Of a DNA stretch of 64,000 nucleotides, positions 10,708 to 57,723 are shown piece by piece. Below the pieces are notes generated by a model. The model saw only the letters and a program-made list of their open reading frames with translations, had not been told where the DNA came from and ran no database searches. The stretch covers positions 62,001 to 126,000 of the forward strand of contig CAACVI010000012.1 of NCBI GenBank assembly GCA_900659855.1, given 5' to 3'. Position numbers and translations under genes: made by a program. Every line of letters begins with the position of its first letter. The first letter of the stretch is position 1. Source of the DNA: Candidatus Desulfarcum epimagneticum. GTDB taxonomy: Bacteria; Desulfobacterota; Desulfobacteria; Desulfobacterales; CR-1.

Positions 10708-10912
10708 TTCTCCTTTTTTTTAATGGGTTATCGGTTTCTCTGTTTAAAAGATAGTCACGGATTCGGCGCTGTCAAGACCGCCGGGGGCGGCCTTTCACGG
10801 GAAAAAAACTTCGGGTGTTTTTTTTTAATAAGGACAAAAAAACATTGAATTATTCGGCCGTTGATATAAAATGCCGCCTTTGCCGAATTTTCAGACAAAA
10901 GGAAAACCCAAA

Positions 10913-12487
10913 ATGATCACATTGCTGGATTACGGAGCCGGAAACGTCAGAAGCGTCATCAACGCGGTGGAGAGGCTGGGGGAAACCATCCGCCCGGCCG
11001 TCTCCGGCCGGGACATCGCCTCGGCCGAAAAACTGATATTTCCCGGGGTGGGCGCTTTCGGCAGCATGATGCGCATGCTCCGGAAAAAAAATTTCATCGC
11101 CCCTTTGAAGGATTACCTGGCGTCCGGCAGGCCCTTTTTCGGAATATGCCTGGGGATGCACGCCCTTTTCGACCAAAGCGAGGAGGCCGCCGGGGAAAAG
11201 GGCCTGGGGCTCATCCCGGGGACGGTCAGGCGCTTTGACACGAATCTGGCCGTTCCCCACATCGGCTGGAACGGGGTCAGCGCCCAAAAAAAATCCCGCC
11301 TGTTCAACGGGTTTTCGGGGGATGAAAAATTCTATTTCGTCCACTCGTTTCATGTGGTCCCGAAGGATCGGTCGGTCACGCTGGCCACCACGAATTACGG
11401 CGTGGAGTTTGTCAGCGCCGTTCAGACCGGCTCCATCTTCGCCACCCAGTTTCACCCTGAAAAAAGCGGGGAAAAGGGCCTGGCGCTTTTAAAAAATTTC
11501 TTAAGCCCCGGAACGGAAGCGTCCCGGCCCGTCGCCGCGCCGGCCGAAACAAAGCTGGCCAAGCGCGTCATCGCCTGTCTGGACGTGAGGGCCAACGACC
11601 AGGGGGACCTGGTGGTGACCAAGGGCGACCAGTACGATGTCCGGGAAAAGGGCCGGGTCCGGAACCTGGGAAAACCGGTGGAGGCCGCGGAGAAGTATTA
11701 CCGGCAAGGCGCCGATGAAATCACGTTTTTAAACATCACCGGGTTCAGGGATTTTCCGCTCAAGGACCTGCCCATGCTGGAGGTTTTGAAGGAGACCTCA
11801 AAGCGGGTGTGCGTCCCCCTGGCCATCGGGGGAGGTATCCGGGATTACACGGACTCGAAGGGAAGGGCCTACAGCGCCCTGGAAGTGGCCGACCGGTACT
11901 TCCGGTCGGGCGCCGACAAAATATCCATCGGAAGCGACGCCGTTCTCATCGCCGAACAGTATCTGAAAACCGGGCGCAAAACCGGCCGGACTTCCATTGA
12001 GCGGATATCCGACGTTTACGGAAGCCAGGCGGTGGTCGTGTCCATTGATCCCAAAAGGGCCTGGGTGAATTCCCCGGACGAAACCCGCCACCCGGTCATG
12101 GAGGAAAAAGAGCCGGGCGAAAACGGCGCCGGACGGTTCTTCTGGCATCAGGCCACCATCAGTGGGGGACGGGAGCCCCGGGACATGGACGCCGTCACCC
12201 TGGCCCGAATCTGCGAAGAGCTGGGGGCCGGGGAGATCCTTTTAAACTCCATCGACCGGGACGGGACCGGGGCGGGCTTCGACATGGATCTCATCCGCTC
12301 CGTCAAGTCGGCGGTCTCCATCCCCGTCATCGCCTCCAGCGGGGCCGGAAGCCCGGCGCATTTCGTGGAGGTCTTCACCCGGACACAGGCCGAGGCGGCC
12401 CTGGCGGCCGGGATATTTCACAGGGGCGAAGTCTCCATCGGCGAGGTGAAACGGGCGCTGGACGGAAAAGTGGAAACCCGCGCATAA
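10913..12487 (+). CDS. hisHF: Bifunctional imidazole glycerol-phosphate synthase, fused HisH-HisF
   Basis: About 524 residues. The HisH glutaminase domain is N-terminal (residues 1-200): the nucleophile lies in FFGICLGMHALFD and the His/Glu pair in TQFHPEKS. The HisF cyclase barrel follows from about residue 215: RVIACLDVRANDQGDLVV has the first catalytic Asp and VVVSIDPKRAW the second, and LLNSIDRDGTGAGFD and PVIASSGAGSPAHF also match. This fused order and the long HisF insertions are those of fungal and plant HIS7, whereas bacteria normally have two genes. The ATG at 10913 starts the HisH core and has AAAAGGAAA upstream. It stands alone, with no other his genes in the window. Confidence 0.93.
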   Translation: MITLLDYGAGNVRSVINAVERLGETIRPAVSGRDIASAEKLIFPGVGAFGSMMRMLRKKNFIAPLKDYLASGRPFFGICLGMHALFDQSEEAAGEKGLGLIPGTVRRFDTNLAVPHIGWNGVSAQKKSRLFNGFSGDEKFYFVHSFHVVPKDRSVTLATTNYGVEFVSAVQTGSIFATQFHPEKSGEKGLALLKNFLSPGTEASRPVAAPAETKLAKRVIACLDVRANDQGDLVVTKGDQYDVREKGRVRNLGKPVEAAEKYYRQGADEITFLNITGFRDFPLKDLPMLEVLKETSKRVCVPLAIGGGIRDYTDSKGRAYSALEVADRYFRSGADKISIGSDAVLIAEQYLKTGRKTGRTSIERISDVYGSQAVVVSIDPKRAWVNSPDETRHPVMEEKEPGENGAGRFFWHQATISGGREPRDMDAVTLARICEELGAGEILLNSIDRDGTGAGFDMDLIRSVKSAVSIPVIASSGAGSPAHFVEVFTRTQAEAALAAGIFHRGEVSIGEVKRALDGKVETRA

Positions 12488-12503: not shown

Positions 12504-13259
12504 TCATGGGCCGCAGACCGGGCAGTCGGGATTGGGGCCGATCTCCATTTTGTTAAAGTCCATTGTCCGGCAGTCCATATAAAGCAACGTGTTTGTTAAA
12601 AGACCTTCCGTCATTCCCAGGACGCATTTGATGGCCTCCATGCTCTGGATGGAGGCCACGACGCCGGGAACGGGCCCGAAAACGCCTATTTTTCTTTTTT
12701 CTTCCGCGCCGGATTCGGAGCCCGGGCCCGGGAAAAGGCACTCCAGGCACGGGGTCCGGCCGGGAAGAAAAGTGGAGACCATTCCGCAAAACCCGTCAAT
12801 GCCTCCATATATATAAGGGACGCCCTTTTGAATGGAGAACCGGTTCAAAACCCTTCGCGCGGCCATATTGTCCGCCGCGTCCAGGATGACATGGGCGCCT
12901 TCGGCCATCTCGCCGATGGAGTCCCGGGTGATTTTTTCCTGGAAATAAACGACATCGCAGCCGGGGTTCAAGGCCTTGAGTTTTTCACAGGCGGACCTGG
13001 CCTTGGGTCTTCGGACATCGGCGGTTCGATGGATGATCTGCCGGTTCAGGTTCCCGGTCTCCACCACATCCATGTCGGCGATTCTCAAACGCCCCACCCC
13101 GGCGGCCGCCATGTAAAAGGCGGACACGGAGCCCAGCCCCCCCAGTCCCGCCACAAAAACGCAGGCCTCCTTTAAGGCTTTCTGGCCCGTCTCCCCCACC
13201 CCGGGGATGATGATCTGGCGCCCGTATCTTTTTTTTTCTTCGGATGACAGAGAGGTCAT
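12504..13259 (-). CDS. ThiF/MoeB/HesA-family E1-like adenylyltransferase
   Basis: Activates the C-terminus of a ubiquitin-like sulfur carrier (ThiS, MoaD or a relative) by adenylation. 251 residues, with RYGRQIIIPGVGETGQKAL, the nucleotide loop VAGLGGLGSVSAFYMA, DMDVVETGNLNRQIIH, and zinc ligands in CLECLF and the C-terminal CPVCG. There is no rhodanese domain. No carrier protein lies next to it, so molybdopterin, thiamin or another sulfur-transfer role cannot be separated. Convergent with hisHF. Confidence 0.88.
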   Translation of the reverse strand: MTSLSSEEKKRYGRQIIIPGVGETGQKALKEACVFVAGLGGLGSVSAFYMAAAGVGRLRIADMDVVETGNLNRQIIHRTADVRRPKARSACEKLKALNPGCDVVYFQEKITRDSIGEMAEGAHVILDAADNMAARRVLNRFSIQKGVPYIYGGIDGFCGMVSTFLPGRTPCLECLFPGPGSESGAEEKRKIGVFGPVPGVVASIQSMEAIKCVLGMTEGLLTNTLLYMDCRTMDFNKMEIGPNPDCPVCGP

Positions 13260-13533: not shown

Positions 13534-14874
13534 ATGGGAAAAAAAATCATGCTCGCCTTTTTCATTCTGTGTCTGCTTTCCCTTTCCTCGCCGCCCTCGC
13601 CCCGGGCCGGGGAGACGACGTGGAAGGCCCAGACCTGGTCTGAAAAAGGATCGCTGTACTATGAGGCTTTCGTGGAATTCACGGATGACATTCGAAAAAA
13701 AACCGCGGGCGCCCTTGTGATCCGGCCCTTTCCCGTGGGCGCGTTCATGCGGGGATCTGAGATGCTCGACGGCCTCAAACACAATATCATCCAGGCCGCC
13801 AACAACGCCCCGGCCTATTTTGTGGAAAAAGACCCCGCCTTCGCGCCCATGGGGGTGCTTCCCGGGGCCTGGACAGAGGTTTCCCAGCTCATGACATGGT
13901 TCCGGGACATGGGGGGAAAAGCGCTTCTGACCCGGCTGTACGCGCCCTACGACGCGGTTCCCATCGGGGTCCAGTCCTTCGGCATGGAATCCATCTCATC
14001 CCGGTTCCCCATCCGCCGCATGGAGGATTTCAAAGGCCGCCGGATACGGGTTCCGGACGAGGGGATGGTGAAAACCCTGTTTGAAAAAATGGGCGCGCGG
14101 GCCGTCCCCCTGCCCGAAGGCGACATTTTGACGGCCCTGGAGAATCAGTTTGTGGACATGGTGGACTGGGGGACCCCGGCCATGAATTACAGCAAGGGAT
14201 TTTATAAAATCGCCAAACATTTTAATTTCCCGGGCTTTCATTCCCTGGGGCTCACCGACTTTTCCGTCAGGAAACAGGACTGGGAGAGGCTTTCCCCGGA
14301 AATCCGGGCCATTGTCATGGACGGGGTTCAGGTGTGGGGGGAGAAACTGCTTCGCCGGATCAATGAGGAAAATTACGTGAAAATCGGAAAGATGCTGGGC
14401 GAGGGGGCGTTTATCCACACCTGGGACAGCGAGGAGATGGACCGGGCCAGGGAAAAAGCCTCGGAGGCGTGGGACGAATGGGCCCAAAAGAGTCCCATGT
14501 CGGCAAAAGTCATCGAATCCCAGAAGATTTGTATGGAAAAGCTGGGCCTGGCCCGATTTTCGGAAATGAAACGCTCAAGGAGACTGTCGGATATCCACGC
14601 CGGTCTGAAGGAGGCGTTTCGGCTCTACGACGACATGATGCTTGAGATCAGCGAAACGCCGCCGGAAAGCCCTTTGGGTTTTGAGCGAGCGGACATCGGC
14701 CGCCTGAAGGCCGCGCTTCAAAAACCGCTGGAAGCCATCCGGAAAATCGAAAAAGGAATGTTTGAAAGCATCAAAAACAGGCTCATTTTAATGGACCGGG
14801 GCCGGGAGGCTGAAAAAACCTTTCAGACCCAAAACCCGCCCGCCCGGCCGTCCATAGGACAAGAGGCCCCATGA
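13534..14874 (+). CDS. TRAP-type solute-binding protein (DctP family), no transporter genes nearby
   Basis: 446 residues. A Sec signal peptide (hydrophobic 5-20, likely cut after PSPRA) precedes a DctP-like domain (about 28-340) with WKAQTWSEKGSLYYEAFVEF, FPVGAFMRGSEMLDGL, MEDFKGRRIRVPDEG and LTALENQFVDMVDWGTPAMN. A helical, charged C-terminal tail of about 100 residues follows that ordinary TRAP receptors lack. No DctQ or DctM membrane subunits are present. GACAGGAGATGTT precedes the ATG, and its stop overlaps the start of the cyclase-kinase gene by 4 bp (ATGA), so the two are translationally coupled. This suggests a sensing rather than transport role. Confidence 0.85.
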   Translation: MGKKIMLAFFILCLLSLSSPPSPRAGETTWKAQTWSEKGSLYYEAFVEFTDDIRKKTAGALVIRPFPVGAFMRGSEMLDGLKHNIIQAANNAPAYFVEKDPAFAPMGVLPGAWTEVSQLMTWFRDMGGKALLTRLYAPYDAVPIGVQSFGMESISSRFPIRRMEDFKGRRIRVPDEGMVKTLFEKMGARAVPLPEGDILTALENQFVDMVDWGTPAMNYSKGFYKIAKHFNFPGFHSLGLTDFSVRKQDWERLSPEIRAIVMDGVQVWGEKLLRRINEENYVKIGKMLGEGAFIHTWDSEEMDRAREKASEAWDEWAQKSPMSAKVIESQKICMEKLGLARFSEMKRSRRLSDIHAGLKEAFRLYDDMMLEISETPPESPLGFERADIGRLKAALQKPLEAIRKIEKGMFESIKNRLILMDRGREAEKTFQTQNPPARPSIGQEAP

Positions 14875-16217
14875 CCCGATTCATTGATCTTTCCCATCCC
14901 ATCACCCGCCGAACGCCCTGCTACCCGGGGGACCCGGAAATCGCCCTTGATCAGGCCCGAAACATCCGGGAGCACGGCTGCGACGTGCTGGAGATTTCCA
15001 TGGGAAGCCACACCGGCTCTCACATAGACGCGCCCTCGCACATGATTGAAGGCGGAAAAACGCTCGGCGATTTCGACCTGTCCTCTTTTTGCGGAAAGGC
15101 CGTCAAAGTGAGGCCGGATGAGGATATAGAGGGGCTTTTCGACGCCTTTGATCTGGATGGGATCATCCTGGAGACCGGATGGGGGGCCCATTTTTCCCGG
15201 CCGGACCTCTATTTCGGCCCCGGGCGTCCCGCCATCCCGGACCATTTTCTGAAAGCCGTCAGGCGCTCCGGGATCAAATTTTTCGGATGCGACCTTCCCA
15301 GCGTGGACCCAAGCGGATCCCGGGACAAAACCGTTCACCGGACGCTTTTGTCCCGGGACATTCTCATCTATGAGAGCCTGGCGAGCCTGGACAAACTGCC
15401 CGACAAAACCCCTTTTTTTTTCCACGGATTCCCCTTGAATATTCCCGGGGCCGACGGATGCCCGGTCAGGGCCGCGGCCCGGATCGGGGAGAGCGGCCGG
15501 GCGCTGGCGGCGAAGAGCCGTTTCCTGGCCGAAATCTCCCATGACCTGAGGGTCCCTTTAAACGGCATGGTCGCCATCGCCGATTCCCTGGCCGGGGGGG
15601 GCGCCGGGGAATTAAGCGAAGATCAGGCCGGGCTCGCGGCCATGATGGGGGACTGCGCCAGGCGGCTGGCGCTGATGGCGGACAACATCCTGGAATATTC
15701 CATTGACAAACGCCGCGCCGTCCGTCCGTCCCTCAAACCGGTGAACGTCCGGAAAGTCGCGGAATGGGCCATGACCTTCTCCAAACCCCTGGCCAGGAAA
15801 AAACCCATTGTGTTCATCAATGATATCCCCGAAAACCTTCCCATGGCCCGGGCCGATGAAAACAAACTGGGCCGGATTCTGCAAAACCTCATGGCGAACG
15901 CCGCGAAATTCACCCAAAAGGGCCGAATAACCGTGGACGCGCGCGCCATGCGGGACGGCGAAATCCGCGTCTCGGTGGCCGACACCGGCCCCGGGATCCC
16001 CAAAGACCGGCAGGCCCTGATTTTCAAACCCTTTGAGCGAGCCGGCGCCCCAAAGGACTCCCGGGACAGCGGCGTGGGGCTGGGGCTGGCGGTGGCCCGT
16101 AAACTGGCGCGGGAGCATGGCGGAGAAATCCGCCTGGAGCGCTCGGGCCCCGAAGGGTCGCTGTTCTCCCTTATCCTCCCGGGGGCCGGGGAACCCGATC
16201 AAAAAAACAGGAATTGA
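14871..16217 (+). CDS. Cyclase-family hydrolase domain fused to a histidine kinase
   Basis: 448 residues in one uninterrupted frame. Residues 1-205 form a cyclase domain (kynurenine formamidase/isatin hydrolase family): FIDLSHPITRRTPCYPGDPE, the metal motif HTGSHIDAPSH (HxG[ST]HxDxPxH), CDLPSVDP and ESLASLDKLP. Residues 215-445 are a kinase: H-box FLAEISHDLRVPLNGMV, N-box ENKLGRILQNLMANAAKFTQ, G1 DTGPGIP, F-box IFKPFERAG and G2 GVGLGLAVARKL. There is no signal peptide or membrane segment, so it should be cytoplasmic. No response regulator lies nearby. The cyclase domain keeps its metal ligands and may be an enzyme or a ligand sensor. I do not recall this architecture from described proteins. 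Confidence 0.88.
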   Translation: MTRFIDLSHPITRRTPCYPGDPEIALDQARNIREHGCDVLEISMGSHTGSHIDAPSHMIEGGKTLGDFDLSSFCGKAVKVRPDEDIEGLFDAFDLDGIILETGWGAHFSRPDLYFGPGRPAIPDHFLKAVRRSGIKFFGCDLPSVDPSGSRDKTVHRTLLSRDILIYESLASLDKLPDKTPFFFHGFPLNIPGADGCPVRAAARIGESGRALAAKSRFLAEISHDLRVPLNGMVAIADSLAGGGAGELSEDQAGLAAMMGDCARRLALMADNILEYSIDKRRAVRPSLKPVNVRKVAEWAMTFSKPLARKKPIVFINDIPENLPMARADENKLGRILQNLMANAAKFTQKGRITVDARAMRDGEIRVSVADTGPGIPKDRQALIFKPFERAGAPKDSRDSGVGLGLAVARKLAREHGGEIRLERSGPEGSLFSLILPGAGEPDQKNRN

Positions 16218-16218
16218 C

Positions 16219-16262
16219 AAAAAAAAAGCCCCGCCGGCGCAAAACGACGGCGGGGCCTTCAT
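16219..16262 (-). terminator. Rho-independent terminator of the glutamate-synthase-like gene
   Basis: A 10-bp stem (GGCCCCGCCG with CGGCGGGGC) and an 11-nt loop are followed on the minus strand by nine T residues. It starts about 13 bp beyond the stop of the 16275-17927 gene. The cyclase-kinase gene converges on it and may use the hairpin as well. Confidence 0.85.
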
Positions 16263-16274
16263 CCTGAATTTTTT

Positions 16275-17927
16275 TTATGCGCCCAATATCTTTCGGGCCT
16301 TTTCGTCATTGACATCCGACACATGGGGAATGCCCGTTTCCTGGGCCGTTTCCCGGTTGCCTGAAAAAATGTCGTCCCTGGAAATCTGGTCCATGGAAAA
16401 TTTCCGGGCGCCGGCCAGAAGCTGCTGAAGCCCGCCGGCCAGTTTGTCCGCCAGGGTGTAAAACGCGATGGCGCCGTAGGGAATGTGTTTCATCTCTTTT
16501 TTGCCGACTCTTTTCTCCAGATCAAAATAAGAGGCGAAAATCTCTTTCGCGCTGTTGCCCACTCTCTGGACCGTCCGGGGCAGCTCGGACCAGTTTCCGT
16601 TGACCTCCGCCCTTCTTTCGGGATAAATGGCCCCCTCGATGTTGGAGCCCACAAACCCCGGTATCATGATGGCGCGCCCCATGCAGACCAGTTTGGTGAA
16701 AGGGGCCCCAAGGGCCAGGGCTTTAAAAATATGGTCCTCCAGGGCAAAGCCCCCGGCAAAGGACAGGTCCACCACATCCTCGCCCTTTCCGGCGAGGATG
16801 GAGGCGTACTCATACGCCTTCGAGTGGAGATTGATGGACGGCACGCCCCAGCTCTGCATCATGTTCCACGGGCTCATGCCTGTTCCCCCGCCCGAGCCGT
16901 CGATGGTGAGAAGGTCGAGCTTGGCGTCCGTGGCGAATTTAATGGCCATGGCCAGCTCTTCCATGCCATAGGAGCCGGTTTTCAGGGTGATGCGTTTAAA
17001 GCCCAGGTCCCGCAGGTATTTCACGCTGTTCATGAAATCTTCCCGAACCTCCCCCACAGTGTCCATGTCCGTCCCCCCCAGGCGGCTGTGGCGGGCGAAG
17101 GACTTGATGGAGCCCTCCTCAAAGGCCTGCCGCACCTCGGGAAGCGAGGGGTCGGGGTCCACGATATAACCCCGCTCTTTCAGGAAAATGGCGTAATCCA
17201 GGCTTCTGACCTGGATTTCCCCGCCGATATCCTTGGCGCCCTGCCCCCATTTTAATTCAATGATGCATTTGTTGCCGTATTTTTTGGCCACAAATTCCGC
17301 CACGCCGTTTCGGGTGTCCTCCACATTGAGCTGGGTGATGATGGCGCCGTAGCCGTCGTAATAGCGCAGATACGTGTCGATTCTTCGCTCCAGCTCGGGC
17401 GATGTCTTGACTTTGCCCTCTCTCTTTTCCCCGGGATCGATTTTGGAGTCGCGGTCCACGCCCACCACGTTTTCCCCGATCACCACGGGAATGCCCACCA
17501 GGGCGCCGCCGATGGCGAAACTGTCCCAATATTTGGAGGCGATGAAGGTGGAGCCCAAAGCGCCCGTCATAATGGGAATCCGGGCCTTTGTTTTCATTTC
17601 CCGGCCGAATTCGGTCTCAAGACTCACATTGGGGAAAATGCAGTCATCGGGATTCGGGGTCAACCCCGGCCCGAGCCCGTGGGAGCCGTAGGCGTATCCC
17701 TGGATCCGTAGAGAATTGTATGAGACCCCGACGTGTGTGGTGTTGTTGGCCCCGGCGGTGACAAGCCCGAAGCTTCTCGGGTACAGCAGCTTCCGGCCCA
17801 CAAGGCTGGAGAGCCAGGTTTCGCATTTGCCCACGCAGTCGGCGCGGCAAAGCGTGCACAGGCTGGATTCAGCGGGATTCCCGCGGTTGCTGGTCCCCAA
17901 AACGTCGTTGCTCTTCGAAAATCTCAT
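16275..17927 (-). CDS. FMN-binding glutamate synthase-like protein
   Basis: 550 residues matching the FMN/synthase domain of GltB: GALGSTFIASKYWDSFAIGG, ECIIELKWGQGAKD-like KCIIELKWGQGAKDIGGEI, TIDGSGGGTGMSPWNMMQSW and ALALGAPFTKLVCMGRA. There is no glutaminase domain. The N-terminus has a CTLCRADCVGKC motif (CxxCxxxCxxxC) that could bind an iron-sulfur cluster. Such standalone proteins occur in archaea and anaerobic bacteria; the reaction could be glutamate synthase or another FMN-dependent redox step. AAAGGAGA lies upstream of the ATG. Single gene with its own terminator. Confidence 0.85.
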   Translation of the reverse strand: MRFSKSNDVLGTSNRGNPAESSLCTLCRADCVGKCETWLSSLVGRKLLYPRSFGLVTAGANNTTHVGVSYNSLRIQGYAYGSHGLGPGLTPNPDDCIFPNVSLETEFGREMKTKARIPIMTGALGSTFIASKYWDSFAIGGALVGIPVVIGENVVGVDRDSKIDPGEKREGKVKTSPELERRIDTYLRYYDGYGAIITQLNVEDTRNGVAEFVAKKYGNKCIIELKWGQGAKDIGGEIQVRSLDYAIFLKERGYIVDPDPSLPEVRQAFEEGSIKSFARHSRLGGTDMDTVGEVREDFMNSVKYLRDLGFKRITLKTGSYGMEELAMAIKFATDAKLDLLTIDGSGGGTGMSPWNMMQSWGVPSINLHSKAYEYASILAGKGEDVVDLSFAGGFALEDHIFKALALGAPFTKLVCMGRAIMIPGFVGSNIEGAIYPERRAEVNGNWSELPRTVQRVGNSAKEIFASYFDLEKRVGKKEMKHIPYGAIAFYTLADKLAGGLQQLLAGARKFSMDQISRDDIFSGNRETAQETGIPHVSDVNDEKARKILGA

Positions 17928-18106: not shown

Positions 18107-18979
18107 TCAGGCGATCCGCTCCAGACATTTAAGGCCCATCCGCCTGACGTTGACCCGGATGATTTCGCGCCTGTGCCAGGCCCGTCCCCGGGCGCTGTCC
18201 CGAACCTTTGACTCGGCGGCGGCGATTTCCCCGGCTTTACCCAGCGCGGCCTCGTCCACGGCTTTGCCCGTCAGGAATGCTTCGGCCTTTTTCGCCCGCA
18301 TGGGCGTGGGGGCCGCCACCCCCAGGCATATCCGGGCCTTTTTGCATGTGACGCCGTCTTCCTCCAGGGCCAGCAAAACCCCGGTTCCCACGATGGGAAG
18401 CTCCATGGCGGCCCTTCGGGAAAACTTGGCGTACGCGCCCGCGGAGGCGGGCTCTTTTTTGGGAATGACGAACCGGGTGAGGATGTCGGACTTTTTTAAA
18501 ACGGTTTGGCCCGGGCCGACAAAAAAATCGGCGATGCCCACCTGCCTGGCTCCCCCGGCGCCATGTATCTCCACCCGGGCGTCCAGGGCCAGCAGAGGGA
18601 CGGCCCCGTCGGCCGAAGGCGCCGCGTTGGCCACGTTTCCCCCCATTGTGCCCACGTTGCGCACCTGGACGGACCCGATGTTGGACACGGCGTCGTGGAT
18701 AATCGGGAACCGGGACTGAATCATGGCGGAGGTCTCCAGGGCGCGGTGGGTCGTCCGCGAGCCGATGCGAAGCTCCCCGGAGTCCGAATCCAGCTCCAGC
18801 GCGTTCAATTCCTTGATCCGGTTGAGGGAAATCAGGGCGTCCGGCCGGGCCCATCCCTCCTTGATCCGGACCATGACATCGGTGCCGCCGGCGATGTAAA
18901 GGGCGTTTTCCCCGGCGGACTCCATGAGGGACACCGCCTCGTCAAGGGCGCCGGGCATGTGGTATTTGAATGTCTCCAT
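18107..18979 (-). CDS. Molybdenum hydroxylase FAD subunit (CoxM/XdhB type)
   Basis: The medium, FAD-binding subunit of a xanthine dehydrogenase-family enzyme, 290 residues. It shows YIAGGTDVMVRIKEG and VRNVGTMGGNVANAAPSADG, the two FAD pyrophosphate loops, then a CO dehydrogenase flavoprotein C-terminal domain. It lacks the cysteine insert seen in the second FAD subunit at 34890. It follows the CoA ligase gene by 24 bp and ends the minus arm of the catabolic cluster. No large or small partner is adjacent; it may share those on the plus arm (37823, 38474) or have partners elsewhere. Confidence 0.9.
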   Translation of the reverse strand: METFKYHMPGALDEAVSLMESAGENALYIAGGTDVMVRIKEGWARPDALISLNRIKELNALELDSDSGELRIGSRTTHRALETSAMIQSRFPIIHDAVSNIGSVQVRNVGTMGGNVANAAPSADGAVPLLALDARVEIHGAGGARQVGIADFFVGPGQTVLKKSDILTRFVIPKKEPASAGAYAKFSRRAAMELPIVGTGVLLALEEDGVTCKKARICLGVAAPTPMRAKKAEAFLTGKAVDEAALGKAGEIAAAESKVRDSARGRAWHRREIIRVNVRRMGLKCLERIA

Positions 18980-22101: not shown

Positions 22102-23772
22102 TCAGCCCCTGACCCAGACCCGTTTGCCGTCAAACACCACGCCCCATTTCCGAATGTCTTGAATCCCTCTTTGGATAAGGGCCGTCTCATACTTTCTTTC
22201 CTCAATCTGCGAAACGGCGCTTTCAAGGGCCTCGTCCTTTGTCTCGCCGGGACGAATGGTTTTCAGCTCCAGGATCAGCGCCGTTTTGTCCGGGTCCTTT
22301 GGAATGACGGAGATGTCATATCTCCCAAATCCGGACTCCTTTTCCGACGCGATCTCATAATCCGCCGCCAGATTCACCAAAAGCCCCAGGATAAACGCCT
22401 GATACACCTTTTCCACATTTTTTCCGGCCGTGTCGAAATAAGACAGGGTCTCGGCGACAAAATCCCCCAGGAGGGTCTCAAAGACCCCGGCGTCGCCCGT
22501 GGTCACGGCTTTCAGCATTTCTTTGAGTTTGTGGCTCTCATAGGACTCGTTGATCCATTTCATCACGGCGTGTTTAAAAATCTGCCTCACCTCAAGGTTG
22601 GGGGCCAGAAGGCTGCGGTGGTCCTCATGATCCACGCGTTTCGGGTCAAAGGCTTTCAGGTACCCGCAAAAAAGAAAAAAATTGTAAACGGCCACCTCGT
22701 CTTTCGGCAAATCCTCAAAGACAATGTTTTCCTCGATCCTCGACTCCACAGGGACATCGTTTAAAATATCCTGAATCCCTTCCCTCACCGCATGGGGCGC
22801 GCCTTTGACAAGGGACTTGATCAGGTCGTTGGAGGATGTGTTGGCCCAGTAAGGACGGCAGACTTTGTCCTTGCTGGAGGCGAAATTCAGGATGGACCAC
22901 GGATTGTAAACGGTCTTTCCCCCGAACAGGTATCCGTCATACCAGCGTCTCACATCCTCCATCCGGTCCTTCGCCCCGCAGGCTTCCATAAGCGCCGACA
23001 CTTCGTTTTCGGAAAAGCCGAAGCGCTCCCGGTATTCCTCTCTCAAAATGGTGTAAACCGCCAGGTTGTTGATGCCCGAAAAAATGGACTCTTTGGCCAC
23101 CCGCAGGATGCCGGTCAAAACCCCTTTGAAAATATACGGATTGTCCTTGAGCCCCGCCCCCAGGAAACTTCTGAAAAAGGCGATGATCTCTTTGTAATAG
23201 CCCTCGCTGTGCCCCACATGGATGGGGGTGTCGTATTCGTCTATTAAAATCAGGGGCTTTTTGTTATGGAAATGATAAAGGTATTGAGACAGGTCGCCCA
23301 GGCTTGCCTCAAAAACATGCGTCTCCGCCTTCATGGCCAATATATCATCAAATCTGCTTTTCTGGATATCGGTGAGAGCCTCGCTTTGCCGCAGATATCC
23401 AAGCCGTCCGAATTCTTTTGAAATGAGCAGTTTGATGGTTTTTAACGCGTCTTCAAACTGAAGCGATTTGACATCTTTAAAACTCAAGTGGATCACGGGA
23501 TATGCGCAAAGATGTTTTTCAAACACAGGCTCTTTTTCCACTGAAAGACCATGAAAAAGTGTTCTGATCCGGTCCTTTTCACCTGTTTTTTCAAAAAAAT
23601 ATCTCAGCATGGAAAGGTTCAGGGTCTTTCCGAATCTCCTGGGGCGAGGCAGCAGAACCACCCGCGCGTCTTCATCGATGATGTCTTGGATGAATAAAGA
23701 CTTGTCGACAAAATAACGGTCCTCTTCCCTGAGTTCCCTGAAGTCGCTTATGCCGATGGAGAGTTTTTTCAT
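22102..23772 (-). CDS. AAA-ATPase_like/PD-(D/E)XK nuclease domain protein (DUF1703 type)
   Basis: 556 residues. The N-terminal ATPase begins IGISDFRELREEDRYFVDKS, with Walker A LPRPRRFGKTLNLSML and Walker B KPLILIDEYDTPI. The C-terminal PD-(D/E)XK fold has FGRYDISVIP and ALILELKTI, with the D...ExK residues intact near residue 490-510. The family is widespread and mobile, and its function is unproven; defence or DNA-processing roles are suspected. First of the genes inserted between hyuB and hyuA, same strand. It has only a weak ribosome binding site. Confidence 0.85.
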   Translation of the reverse strand: MKKLSIGISDFRELREEDRYFVDKSLFIQDIIDEDARVVLLPRPRRFGKTLNLSMLRYFFEKTGEKDRIRTLFHGLSVEKEPVFEKHLCAYPVIHLSFKDVKSLQFEDALKTIKLLISKEFGRLGYLRQSEALTDIQKSRFDDILAMKAETHVFEASLGDLSQYLYHFHNKKPLILIDEYDTPIHVGHSEGYYKEIIAFFRSFLGAGLKDNPYIFKGVLTGILRVAKESIFSGINNLAVYTILREEYRERFGFSENEVSALMEACGAKDRMEDVRRWYDGYLFGGKTVYNPWSILNFASSKDKVCRPYWANTSSNDLIKSLVKGAPHAVREGIQDILNDVPVESRIEENIVFEDLPKDEVAVYNFFLFCGYLKAFDPKRVDHEDHRSLLAPNLEVRQIFKHAVMKWINESYESHKLKEMLKAVTTGDAGVFETLLGDFVAETLSYFDTAGKNVEKVYQAFILGLLVNLAADYEIASEKESGFGRYDISVIPKDPDKTALILELKTIRPGETKDEALESAVSQIEERKYETALIQRGIQDIRKWGVVFDGKRVWVRG

Positions 23773-23800
23773 TGGTGATTTTTTTTGCTTCTTTATCGCC

Positions 23801-24769
23801 TTAGTAGTTTATTTTTGTTTTCTTGCTTATAATATAAAACCCATCAAAAGCTAAATGCACCTCTTTAAGTCTCATAAACCTAAGTTGTTTTTTAATTTCC
23901 CAGTCTAAATATCGAAATATAATCAACACAAATACCGTCAATAAAAAAAAGATGATGATTGAATTTCCGACGTTTCTGTAAACAAGTGAAAAGTATTCAA
24001 AATCCAAAATTTTCGCAAAAAAGATACAAATAAAAACGAATATAACCAGAAGGTTAAGGATAAAGCTATATTTAATTGCATAAAATACGCCGGCAAACAA
24101 TCGAACAAGAGACTCTTGGCCGCGCATCTCTTCTTTGAATGAAGAACTGCTTTCGAAGATTACCGATTTGCAAAAATTGAAGAATGCTGAATGGCTCATT
24201 ATCCCTTCTCGATCGTATTTTTCAAAAAAATCAATATAATCTTGGGTTTGTTTTCTCAACCTTGCTTCCGTCACTCGAAGTGGATAAGGAAATTTTTCCC
24301 AAAAATTAAATATTTTGAAATGATTATGAAGTTTTAATTTGTATTCTTCAGTTGTAATCTTTCTTGCGTAATATTGATCATTAATCACTTTAAAATGTCT
24401 TCTGAAAAGATTATTGTATTCTTCTACGGGACTGTCGATTTTAAAAGAACCGTGTATAGCCTTAATTTTTGCCTTTTTCCCATCATCGTTTTTTATTCTT
24501 TTTATTCTTTTCTTCCGGAATGCGGTTACAGACTTTTTTTCTAAATCATCGAGTCGTTTTAATCTTAAAGATTGGCCTGCGATGTAGCTAAATATCAGAA
24601 ACGCCGAAAAGGTCAAAAAGCTGTTCAATTTCAAAATAATAGAAAATACATTGAGTGAAAAGAAAAGTAGAATAAGCCCCGAAAAGGCCCAAAGTATAAA
24701 AAAGACTAAGAACCCCCCAGGGAATAGAATGCCGACACCGTCTCTCACTATGTCTCTAAGCAATCCCAT
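23801..24769 (-). CDS. Hypothetical membrane protein, AT-rich
   Basis: 322 residues, no family recognised. Two hydrophobic segments lie at the N-terminus (about 14-38 and 42-64) and two near the C-terminus (about 232-256 and 266-288), with a charged, helical, probably cytoplasmic middle that includes a KKRIKRIKNDDGKKAKIKA patch. Base composition is clearly richer in A and T than the neighbouring catabolic genes, which points to recent acquisition. It lies between the ATPase/nuclease gene and the MNT-HEPN genes, all on the minus strand, and may form one accessory cassette with them. Confidence 0.6.
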   Translation of the reverse strand: MGLLRDIVRDGVGILFPGGFLVFFILWAFSGLILLFFSLNVFSIILKLNSFLTFSAFLIFSYIAGQSLRLKRLDDLEKKSVTAFRKKRIKRIKNDDGKKAKIKAIHGSFKIDSPVEEYNNLFRRHFKVINDQYYARKITTEEYKLKLHNHFKIFNFWEKFPYPLRVTEARLRKQTQDYIDFFEKYDREGIMSHSAFFNFCKSVIFESSSSFKEEMRGQESLVRLFAGVFYAIKYSFILNLLVIFVFICIFFAKILDFEYFSLVYRNVGNSIIIFFLLTVFVLIIFRYLDWEIKKQLRFMRLKEVHLAFDGFYIISKKTKINY

Positions 24770-56364: not shown

Positions 56365-57723
56365 TTACTTCAGACTTTTCACTTTTTTATGGAGATAGCT
56401 GCGCGCCACCCCGATGATCTTGGCCGTCCGGGTGAAATTGTGGTCATTTTCCTTGAGTTTCCGATGGATGAATTCCTTTTCAAAGGCCCGTTTGGCCTCC
56501 TTGAGGTTTTCGCCTTCAAAAAGCCCCGGGAAAAAGACCGGGGAATGCCCGGCGGCTCCCCCGTCCCGGTATTCCGCCGGAATATCGCCGGCCTCGATGG
56601 TCTCTTTTCCCACCATGATCACCAGACGCTCCGCCAGATTTTTCAACTCCCGGACATTCCCGGGCCAGCGGTAGCCCATCAGCAGGTCCAGGGCCTCCGG
56701 CGCGACCTTTTTTTTCCGGCTCCTGTTTTCCCGGGCGTAAATATTAAAAAACGTGTCCATGAGAATGGGAATGTCCTCTATGCGATCCCTCAAAGGGGGA
56801 ACGGTGATGGGAATCACGTTCAAACGGTAATACAGGTCCTCCCGAAAGTTGCCCGCCTCGATTTCCTTTTCCATATCCTTATTGCTGGCGGTGATGACCC
56901 TCAAATCGATATCCAGGACCCGGGTGCCCCCCACCCGCTGTATTTTTCTCTCCTGGAGGGCGCGCAGTATCTTGGCCTGGTTTTTCAAGCTCATATCGCT
57001 GATCTCGTCCAGGAAGATGGTTCCCTTGTTGGCCAGCTCGAACTTGCCTCTTTTTTTGACGGTGGAGGACGAAAAAGCCCCCCGTTCCTGGCCGAAAAGC
57101 TCGGTCTCGATCAGCTCGTCGGGGATGGCGGCGCAGTTCACTTCCACAATGGGCTCCTCGGCCCTGGGGCTGAGCTGGTGGATGGTTCTGGCCACCAACT
57201 CCTTTCCCGTTCCGTTCTCGCCCTTGACGAATATCCATGAGTCGGAGGGGGCGATGACGGCCACCTGTTTCCTTAATTCATTGATAACGGGTGAATGGCC
57301 GTCAATGGAGTGTTTTTTTAGCGCCTTTCCCCTCAGGTAGCGGTTTTCCTCTTCCAGGCGTTTGAAATTCAAGGCGTTGTTGATGGCCACAATCACCTTT
57401 TCGATGGACAAAGGCTTTTCGATCAGATCATAGGCGCCCAGCTTGATGGTCTGGACCGCCGTCTCAATGGAGCCATGGCCGGTGATAACGATGACCTGAA
57501 CATGGGGGCTGGTCTTTTTGATTTCCTTTAAGGTCTCAATGCCGTCTATTCCCGGCATCCATATGTCCAGAAGGGCCAGGTCCGGGGATTCGGAATCAAT
57601 GATCTTTAAAGCCTCATAACCGTTTGAGGCCGTGAGCACATCATAGCCCTCATCCGAGAGCAGGCCTTTCAATGTCCGGATGATGGACGCCTCGTCATCA
57701 ACCAGGAGAATAGTGGGAAACAT
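56365..57723 (-). CDS. NtrX-like response regulator with altered GAFTGA loop
   Basis: 452 residues. The receiver domain (1-120) has the phospho-acceptor Asp in LALLDIWMPG. The AAA+ domain has Walker A VKGENGTGKELVARTIH, Walker B GTIFLDEISDMS, and a C-terminal Fis-type helix-turn-helix ending RSYLHKKVKSLK. The sigma-54 contact loop, normally GAFTGA, reads GAFSSS, as in NtrX proteins that have lost or weakened sigma-54 activation. It lies downstream of the NtrY-like kinase by 25 bp and forms a two-component pair with it. Confidence 0.9.
   Translation of the reverse strand: MFPTILLVDDEASIIRTLKGLLSDEGYDVLTASNGYEALKIIDSESPDLALLDIWMPGIDGIETLKEIKKTSPHVQVIVITGHGSIETAVQTIKLGAYDLIEKPLSIEKVIVAINNALNFKRLEEENRYLRGKALKKHSIDGHSPVINELRKQVAVIAPSDSWIFVKGENGTGKELVARTIHQLSPRAEEPIVEVNCAAIPDELIETELFGQERGAFSSSTVKKRGKFELANKGTIFLDEISDMSLKNQAKILRALQERKIQRVGGTRVLDIDLRVITASNKDMEKEIEAGNFREDLYYRLNVIPITVPPLRDRIEDIPILMDTFFNIYARENRSRKKKVAPEALDLLMGYRWPGNVRELKNLAERLVIMVGKETIEAGDIPAEYRDGGAAGHSPVFFPGLFEGENLKEAKRAFEKEFIHRKLKENDHNFTRTAKIIGVARSYLHKKVKSLK

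Follow-up and report, generated by a model that had tools for sequence, protein, structure and literature searches.

The sensor kinase CbrA of Pseudomonas, a fusion of an SLC5 transporter with a histidine kinase, uses a working metabolic protein as its N-terminal part, and no phosphatase activity was detected for CbrA (PMC7096432). The binding-protein-activated kinases AgtS, AruS, and GtrS are encoded beside binding-protein genes (PMC11113362, PMC7927077). Among metal-dependent hydrolases of the Cyclase family, KynB (PDB 4co9, 4cog, and 4cob) forms a dimer in which each active site is partly built by the partner subunit and the last strands lie at the dimer interface (PMC4243253). Isatin hydrolase (PDB 4j0n and 5nnb) has the same fold and HxGxHxDxPxH motif, and its signature is GLAS/GLQC at the Gln219 position (PMC6117287).

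The locus analyzed here is located in a 64,000-nucleotide stretch of the genome (draft, 52 contigs, 99.7% complete) of the sulfate-reducer-type bacterium Candidatus Desulfarcum epimagneticum, hereafter the window, to which all positions refer. As in CbrA, a metabolic protein forms the N-terminal part of a kinase, but it is a soluble hydrolase rather than a membrane transporter, and CbrA has a known response regulator. As for AgtS, AruS, and GtrS, a binding-protein gene stands beside the kinase gene, but those kinases are membrane receptors, whereas the one encoded here is soluble.

Organization of the locus

Two genes on the plus strand, gene 1 (13534–14874) and gene 2 (14871–16217), overlap by 4 bp, as reported in a preliminary description of this DNA; the ATGA overlap is at 14871–14874 and suggests translational coupling. 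Upstream lies a divergent ThiF-type gene (12504–13259, minus strand), and the gene that follows downstream is convergent and glutamate-synthase-like (16275–17927, minus strand). Between the convergent genes, a GC-rich, terminator-like hairpin (16228–16250, no strand assigned) closes the unit, and with such flanks the pair represents a self-contained two-gene unit. Farther upstream, at 10871–12487, a HisH-like glutaminase and a HisF-like His_biosynth domain (Pfam) are fused in one 538-residue open reading frame. Such a single-chain arrangement is known mainly from eukaryotic HIS7.

The orphan TRAP-type binding protein

Gene 1 encodes a TRAP/DctP-family periplasmic binding protein of 446 aa. Residues 34–318 matched Pfam DctP (E = 1.9e-35), and the AF2 model matched the receptors 4pe3, 2zzv/2zzx, 7ug8, and TakP. 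It most closely resembles the lactate and alpha-keto acid receptors of TRAP systems (2zzv, 7ug8, and TakP, 2hzk), and this similarity extends from the fold to the overall sequence, including the conserved Arg region. The only hydrophobic segment found in the hydropathy profile is N-terminal and of the signal-peptide type (residues 1–25, 13534–13608), with a weak putative cleavage site PRA|GE.

Unlike the lactate and alpha-keto acid receptors, the gene 1 protein has an extra helical C-terminal tail of about 100 residues (347–446, 14572–14871) and lacks its own permease. The tail was modeled with modest confidence (pLDDT about 50–76) as two long helices, 342–374 and 388–433. The nearest relatives, with 38%–40% identity, are receptors of ordinary length that stop near residue 340–350, and no relatives of residues 333–446 were found among 96 genomes of the order. 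Wherever their context was read, these nearest relatives adjoin DctQM-type permease genes, but no TRAP permease gene is present near gene 1, and each of the seven DctM permeases that the genome encodes adjoins another binding protein. Of the features initially attributed to this gene, the DctP-family receptor, the additional tail, and the absence of transporter genes nearby were all found, and the signal peptide was found as a segment of signal-peptide type. The missing permease, the otherwise paired DctM proteins, and the extra tail make a signaling or accessory role of gene 1 plausible.

The hydrolase-kinase fusion

Gene 2 encodes a protein of 448 aa in which Pfam recognized Cyclase (residues 5–147, 1.3e-18), HisKA (214–277, 8e-10), and HATPase_c (329–437, 2.1e-26) domains. 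Membrane segments were not found in it (best 19-residue hydropathy mean 0.96). The reading frame is open throughout, and stops of the other two frames occur at 15542 and 15547, just past the junction of the two halves. The GC periodicity of codon positions is unbroken across this junction, and the codon usage of both halves resembles that of neighboring genes. The alignment of the hydrolase half with stand-alone relatives holds over its whole length, first residues and last strand included, and passes through a T run near 15413–15421. Downstream of the hydrolase, no in-frame ATG, GTG, or TTG occurs before codon 233, and a start there would leave out the phospho-acceptor His224; therefore, the kinase can hardly be made outside the fusion. 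One model of the entire protein recovered both folds (pTM 0.51), with the relative orientation of the halves predicted without confidence; residues 190–205 had pLDDT below 50, this last hydrolase strand being poorly modeled because its alignment rows were trimmed. Since there is a single frame with unbroken periodicity, both folds are modeled, all motifs are kept, and the kinase has no separate start, an error at the join appears unlikely.

The full-length protein was used as a query against 389 genomes of the order, 291 of the class, and 297 of the phylum, in overlapping samples with the best few candidates scored in each. The Pfam Cyclase profile was also applied to 395 genomes of the phylum, and long frames were inspected among the matches listed. 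Together, the samples covered roughly 670 genomes of the phylum, and no second hydrolase-kinase fusion was found among the best few candidates and the matches listed. Among the latter, three long Cyclase frames were rejected as fusions, representing tandem cyclases (L130), a gap-joined contig (L128), and an upstream extension (L129), and another (L127) was not resolved into a fusion. The tandem case is itself a single open reading frame with two cyclase domains (L130:599–2122). The fusion was also not found in plasmids, phages, and viral contigs, where long plasmid alignments to gene 2 fell on ordinary kinases, nor in assembled genome contigs by an exact short-peptide scan, which reaches close relatives only. 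A limited search of the open-access literature revealed no published account of a hydrolase-kinase fusion.

The homologues of gene 2 found elsewhere are all separate genes. This was one of two signs of an erroneous join named in the preliminary description; the other, a frameshift or stop between the domains, was not seen in the sequence checks. Because no further member of the genus or family was among the samples, the fusion may be limited to the source lineage, and a single known example provides no evidence of selection on this architecture. Overall, gene 2 is a real, unusual, and probably lineage-restricted enzyme-kinase fusion.

The hydrolase domain

The hydrolase domain (residues 1–205, 14871–15485) has the KynB fold, as follows from PDB phmmer searches (best match 4cz1, 3.1e-19) and fold comparison. 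Its model matched KynB 4co9 with a VIA Z of 18.5 over 182 residues at 2.8 A (178–182 residues across the KynB matches); cyclase-phosphotriesterase and isatin hydrolase matched at about the same Z. The HxGxHxDxPxH motif and the His/Glu ligands are present, and the Pfam Cyclase score was 68 bits against a cut-off of 23.1. The metal-binding motif reads HTGSHIDAPSH (residues 47–57, 15009–15041), so that a domain of the HxGSHxDxPxH type is indeed joined to a complete histidine kinase devoid of membrane segments, as first described. The KynB active-site set comprises His47, His51, Asp53, His57, Ser144, Asp146, His156, and Glu168, together with Tyr18 in place of Trp20, and these residues are nearly invariant among relatives.

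The domain thus shares with KynB the fold, the metal ligands, the catalytic His/Ser/Glu, and an aromatic residue at the Trp20 position, but it has about 25% identity to KynB, belongs to a separate clade, is fused to a kinase, and falls under the cut-off of the arylformamidase equivalog TIGR03035 (NCBIfam; 85.8 bits against 223). With isatin hydrolase, it has the fold and the HxGxHxDxPxH motif in common, but identity is 17% over the fold match, and instead of GLAS/GLQC the fusion reads IYES, with the KynB-type Glu. In the maximum likelihood tree, the hydrolase half branched first in a clade (support 100/100) whose other five members are stand-alone cyclases from the same order, with KynB placed elsewhere. 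None of these sister cyclases has a kinase attached. Four of them cluster with genes of a 2-hydroxyacid dehydrogenase, a HAD phosphatase, and an NAD-epimerase, and the fifth (L010) with the epimerase only. Such a context would fit the chemistry of sugar acids or related compounds better than that of indoles.

In Desulfamplus-type genomes, a stand-alone cyclase gene and those of the 2-hydroxyacid dehydrogenase, the HAD protein, and the NAD-epimerase form a conserved cluster (L030:5441–8645 and L074:5222–8426, the same genome region). Beside it, genes for a fusion of a cNMP-binding domain with a sodium-sulfate symporter and for an ABC_sub_bind protein were found (L074:2175–5134). A relocated copy of this cluster in the genome of Ca. 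Desulfarcum epimagneticum was considered and rejected, as the cluster epimerase has no close homologue there (best 26% identity). The fused hydrolase is not the sole Cyclase-family member in its genome: a second, distant gene (C34:161819; L131:3628–4632) encodes a protein with a signal-peptide-like start, which is possibly exported.

The preliminary description linked the pair to indole-derived compounds through kynurenine formamidase and isatin hydrolase. This link is not supported, since the hydrolase clades with these stand-alone cyclases and not with KynB or isatin hydrolase, and the gene 1 protein resembles lactate and alpha-keto acid receptors. An indoleacetate-like cluster had been noted 2 kb away, and iaa-type genes do start at 18107, a distance of 1.9 kb, but they are on the opposite strand, and both the GC-rich hairpin and an unrelated gene lie in between. 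By gene content, the region at 18107–40765 is a cluster of the anaerobic indoleacetate (iaa) type, with genes encoding a CoA ligase, hydantoinases A and B, a B12 mutase, an acyl-CoA dehydrogenase, EtfAB, a CaiB-type CoA transferase, and molybdenum hydroxylase subunits; iaa operons carrying their own ETF have been reported in sulfate reducers (PMC8360864). Between the hydantoinase B and A genes (22102–24769), there are an AAA-ATPase/PDDEXK_9 gene and a low-GC open reading frame without a Pfam match, whose third-position GC is 0.33 against about 0.75 around it, resembling an insertion.

The kinase domain

The HisKA dimerization and phospho-acceptor domain (15510–15701) contains the H box SHDLR with His224 (15540–15542), and the Pfam HATPase_c domain (15855–16181) contains the N, G1, F, and G2 boxes. 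This is the complete set of a histidine kinase, and gene 2 is predicted to have kinase activity. The position four residues after the histidine, which belongs to the phosphatase motif, is occupied by Val228 (15552–15554); of 23 compared kinases, 22 have Thr and one has Ser there. In HisKA kinases, Thr or Asn at this position is needed for the phosphatase activity of bifunctional members but not for kinase activity (PMC3510030). Since gene 2 has Val instead, its output is predicted to be kinase-only, in which it would resemble CbrA.

The closest relatives of the kinase half, with up to 47% identity, are the cores of large sensor kinases from the same order and phylum. The kinase with the closest core (47%) is a membrane protein, and its gene immediately follows one for a peptide-type binding protein (L069:1–3729). 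No linked response regulator was found for gene 2; the genome encodes about 20 receiver domains, and the nearest is ~41 kb away, in a regulator gene at 56365–57723 that adjoins its own kinase gene.

Proposed mechanism

The best reading of these data, which we give an even chance, is that gene 2 encodes a cytosolic, enzyme-derived sensor kinase biased toward kinase output. In this reading, it is a soluble two-domain sensor, with a dimer of KynB-fold metal hydrolases replacing the usual sensor region of a HisKA kinase. At the sequence level, this model is based on the intact hydrolase site, the intact kinase boxes, their direct join, and the overlap with an orphan TRAP-type gene. HisKA kinases, like KynB, are dimeric. 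Hardly any sequence separates the C-terminus of the hydrolase from kinase helix 1, which spans residues 207–241 in the model, and with active sites shared between subunits, a dimeric kinase, and such a short connection, a ligand-induced change of the dimer could reach the kinase.

A cytosolic small molecule, namely a substrate, a product, or a metal, would occupy the hydrolase site and change the dimer geometry. Via the short linker (about residues 204–212), this change would be passed to helix 1 of the dimeric kinase and would set the autophosphorylation of His224. The phosphoryl output, kinase-only because of Val228, would be handed to an unlinked response regulator. The gene 1 protein most likely would bind the same carboxylate, or one related to it, outside the cell, for import or accessory sensing. 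It counts against this model that the receptor is periplasmic and the kinase soluble, with no evident route for a signal to cross the membrane between them. The idea of a hydrolase-domain substrate sensor setting kinase activity had already been put forward in the preliminary description; the fusion and, as a plausible hypothesis, the sensor hold, but the indole ligand does not.

Alternative explanations

The alternative that survives best concerns only the role of gene 1 and is compatible with the sensor model. Its product could serve import only, feeding a TRAP permease encoded elsewhere, and the compound taken up would then be sensed or processed by the kinase within the cytosol. The overlap of the genes, the cytosolic location of the hydrolase-kinase, and the seven TRAP permeases in the genome are consistent with this, but every permease already has an adjacent binding protein. 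Also, a TRAP system usually works with its own binding protein only, and import alone is considered less likely than not.

Slightly less probable is a recent neutral gene fusion, leaving an active hydrolase and an unregulated kinase on one chain with no signaling link. The fusion is a singleton among the sampled genomes, and its sister genes encode stand-alone enzymes without a kinase, as would be expected in this case. On the other hand, all motifs of both halves are kept, a separate kinase start is absent, a second gene overlaps, and a kinase without input would probably be costly to retain. We regard neutrality as rather unlikely.

Gene 1 could also encode the true receptor of a three-component system, acting through a membrane protein on the kinase, with the hydrolase domain being merely a dimer scaffold. 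Binding-protein-activated sensor kinases are often encoded beside the binding protein (PMC11113362), the closest kinase relative follows a peptide-type binding-protein gene, and gene 1 has a new tail and no permease. However, known cases employ membrane kinases, and the fused kinase offers a binding protein neither a membrane part nor a periplasmic one to act on; moreover, the catalytic residues of a scaffold would need no retention. This makes such a system improbable. A sequencing or assembly artefact, suggested by the draft genome, the lack of a second copy, and the T run, is very improbable, since the frame agrees with relatives through the T run to the hydrolase end and unbroken codon periodicity accompanies a clean join at the domain boundary.

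Implications

Tentatively, and with a probability well below that of the sensor model itself, the pair might represent a new class of cytosolic sensor kinases, in which catalysis or occupancy at an intact, subunit-shared KynB-fold site directly drives the kinase dimer and a co-translated periplasmic receptor of the same compound carries a helical tail for signaling instead of transport. If the hydrolase works, gene 2 would be a rare natural case of a soluble metabolic enzyme joined straight to a kinase, whose occupancy could be read as phosphorylation. The protein is small, soluble, and by its design dimeric, which makes enzyme-to-kinase coupling testable in vitro, and it may be of use as a modular biosensor.
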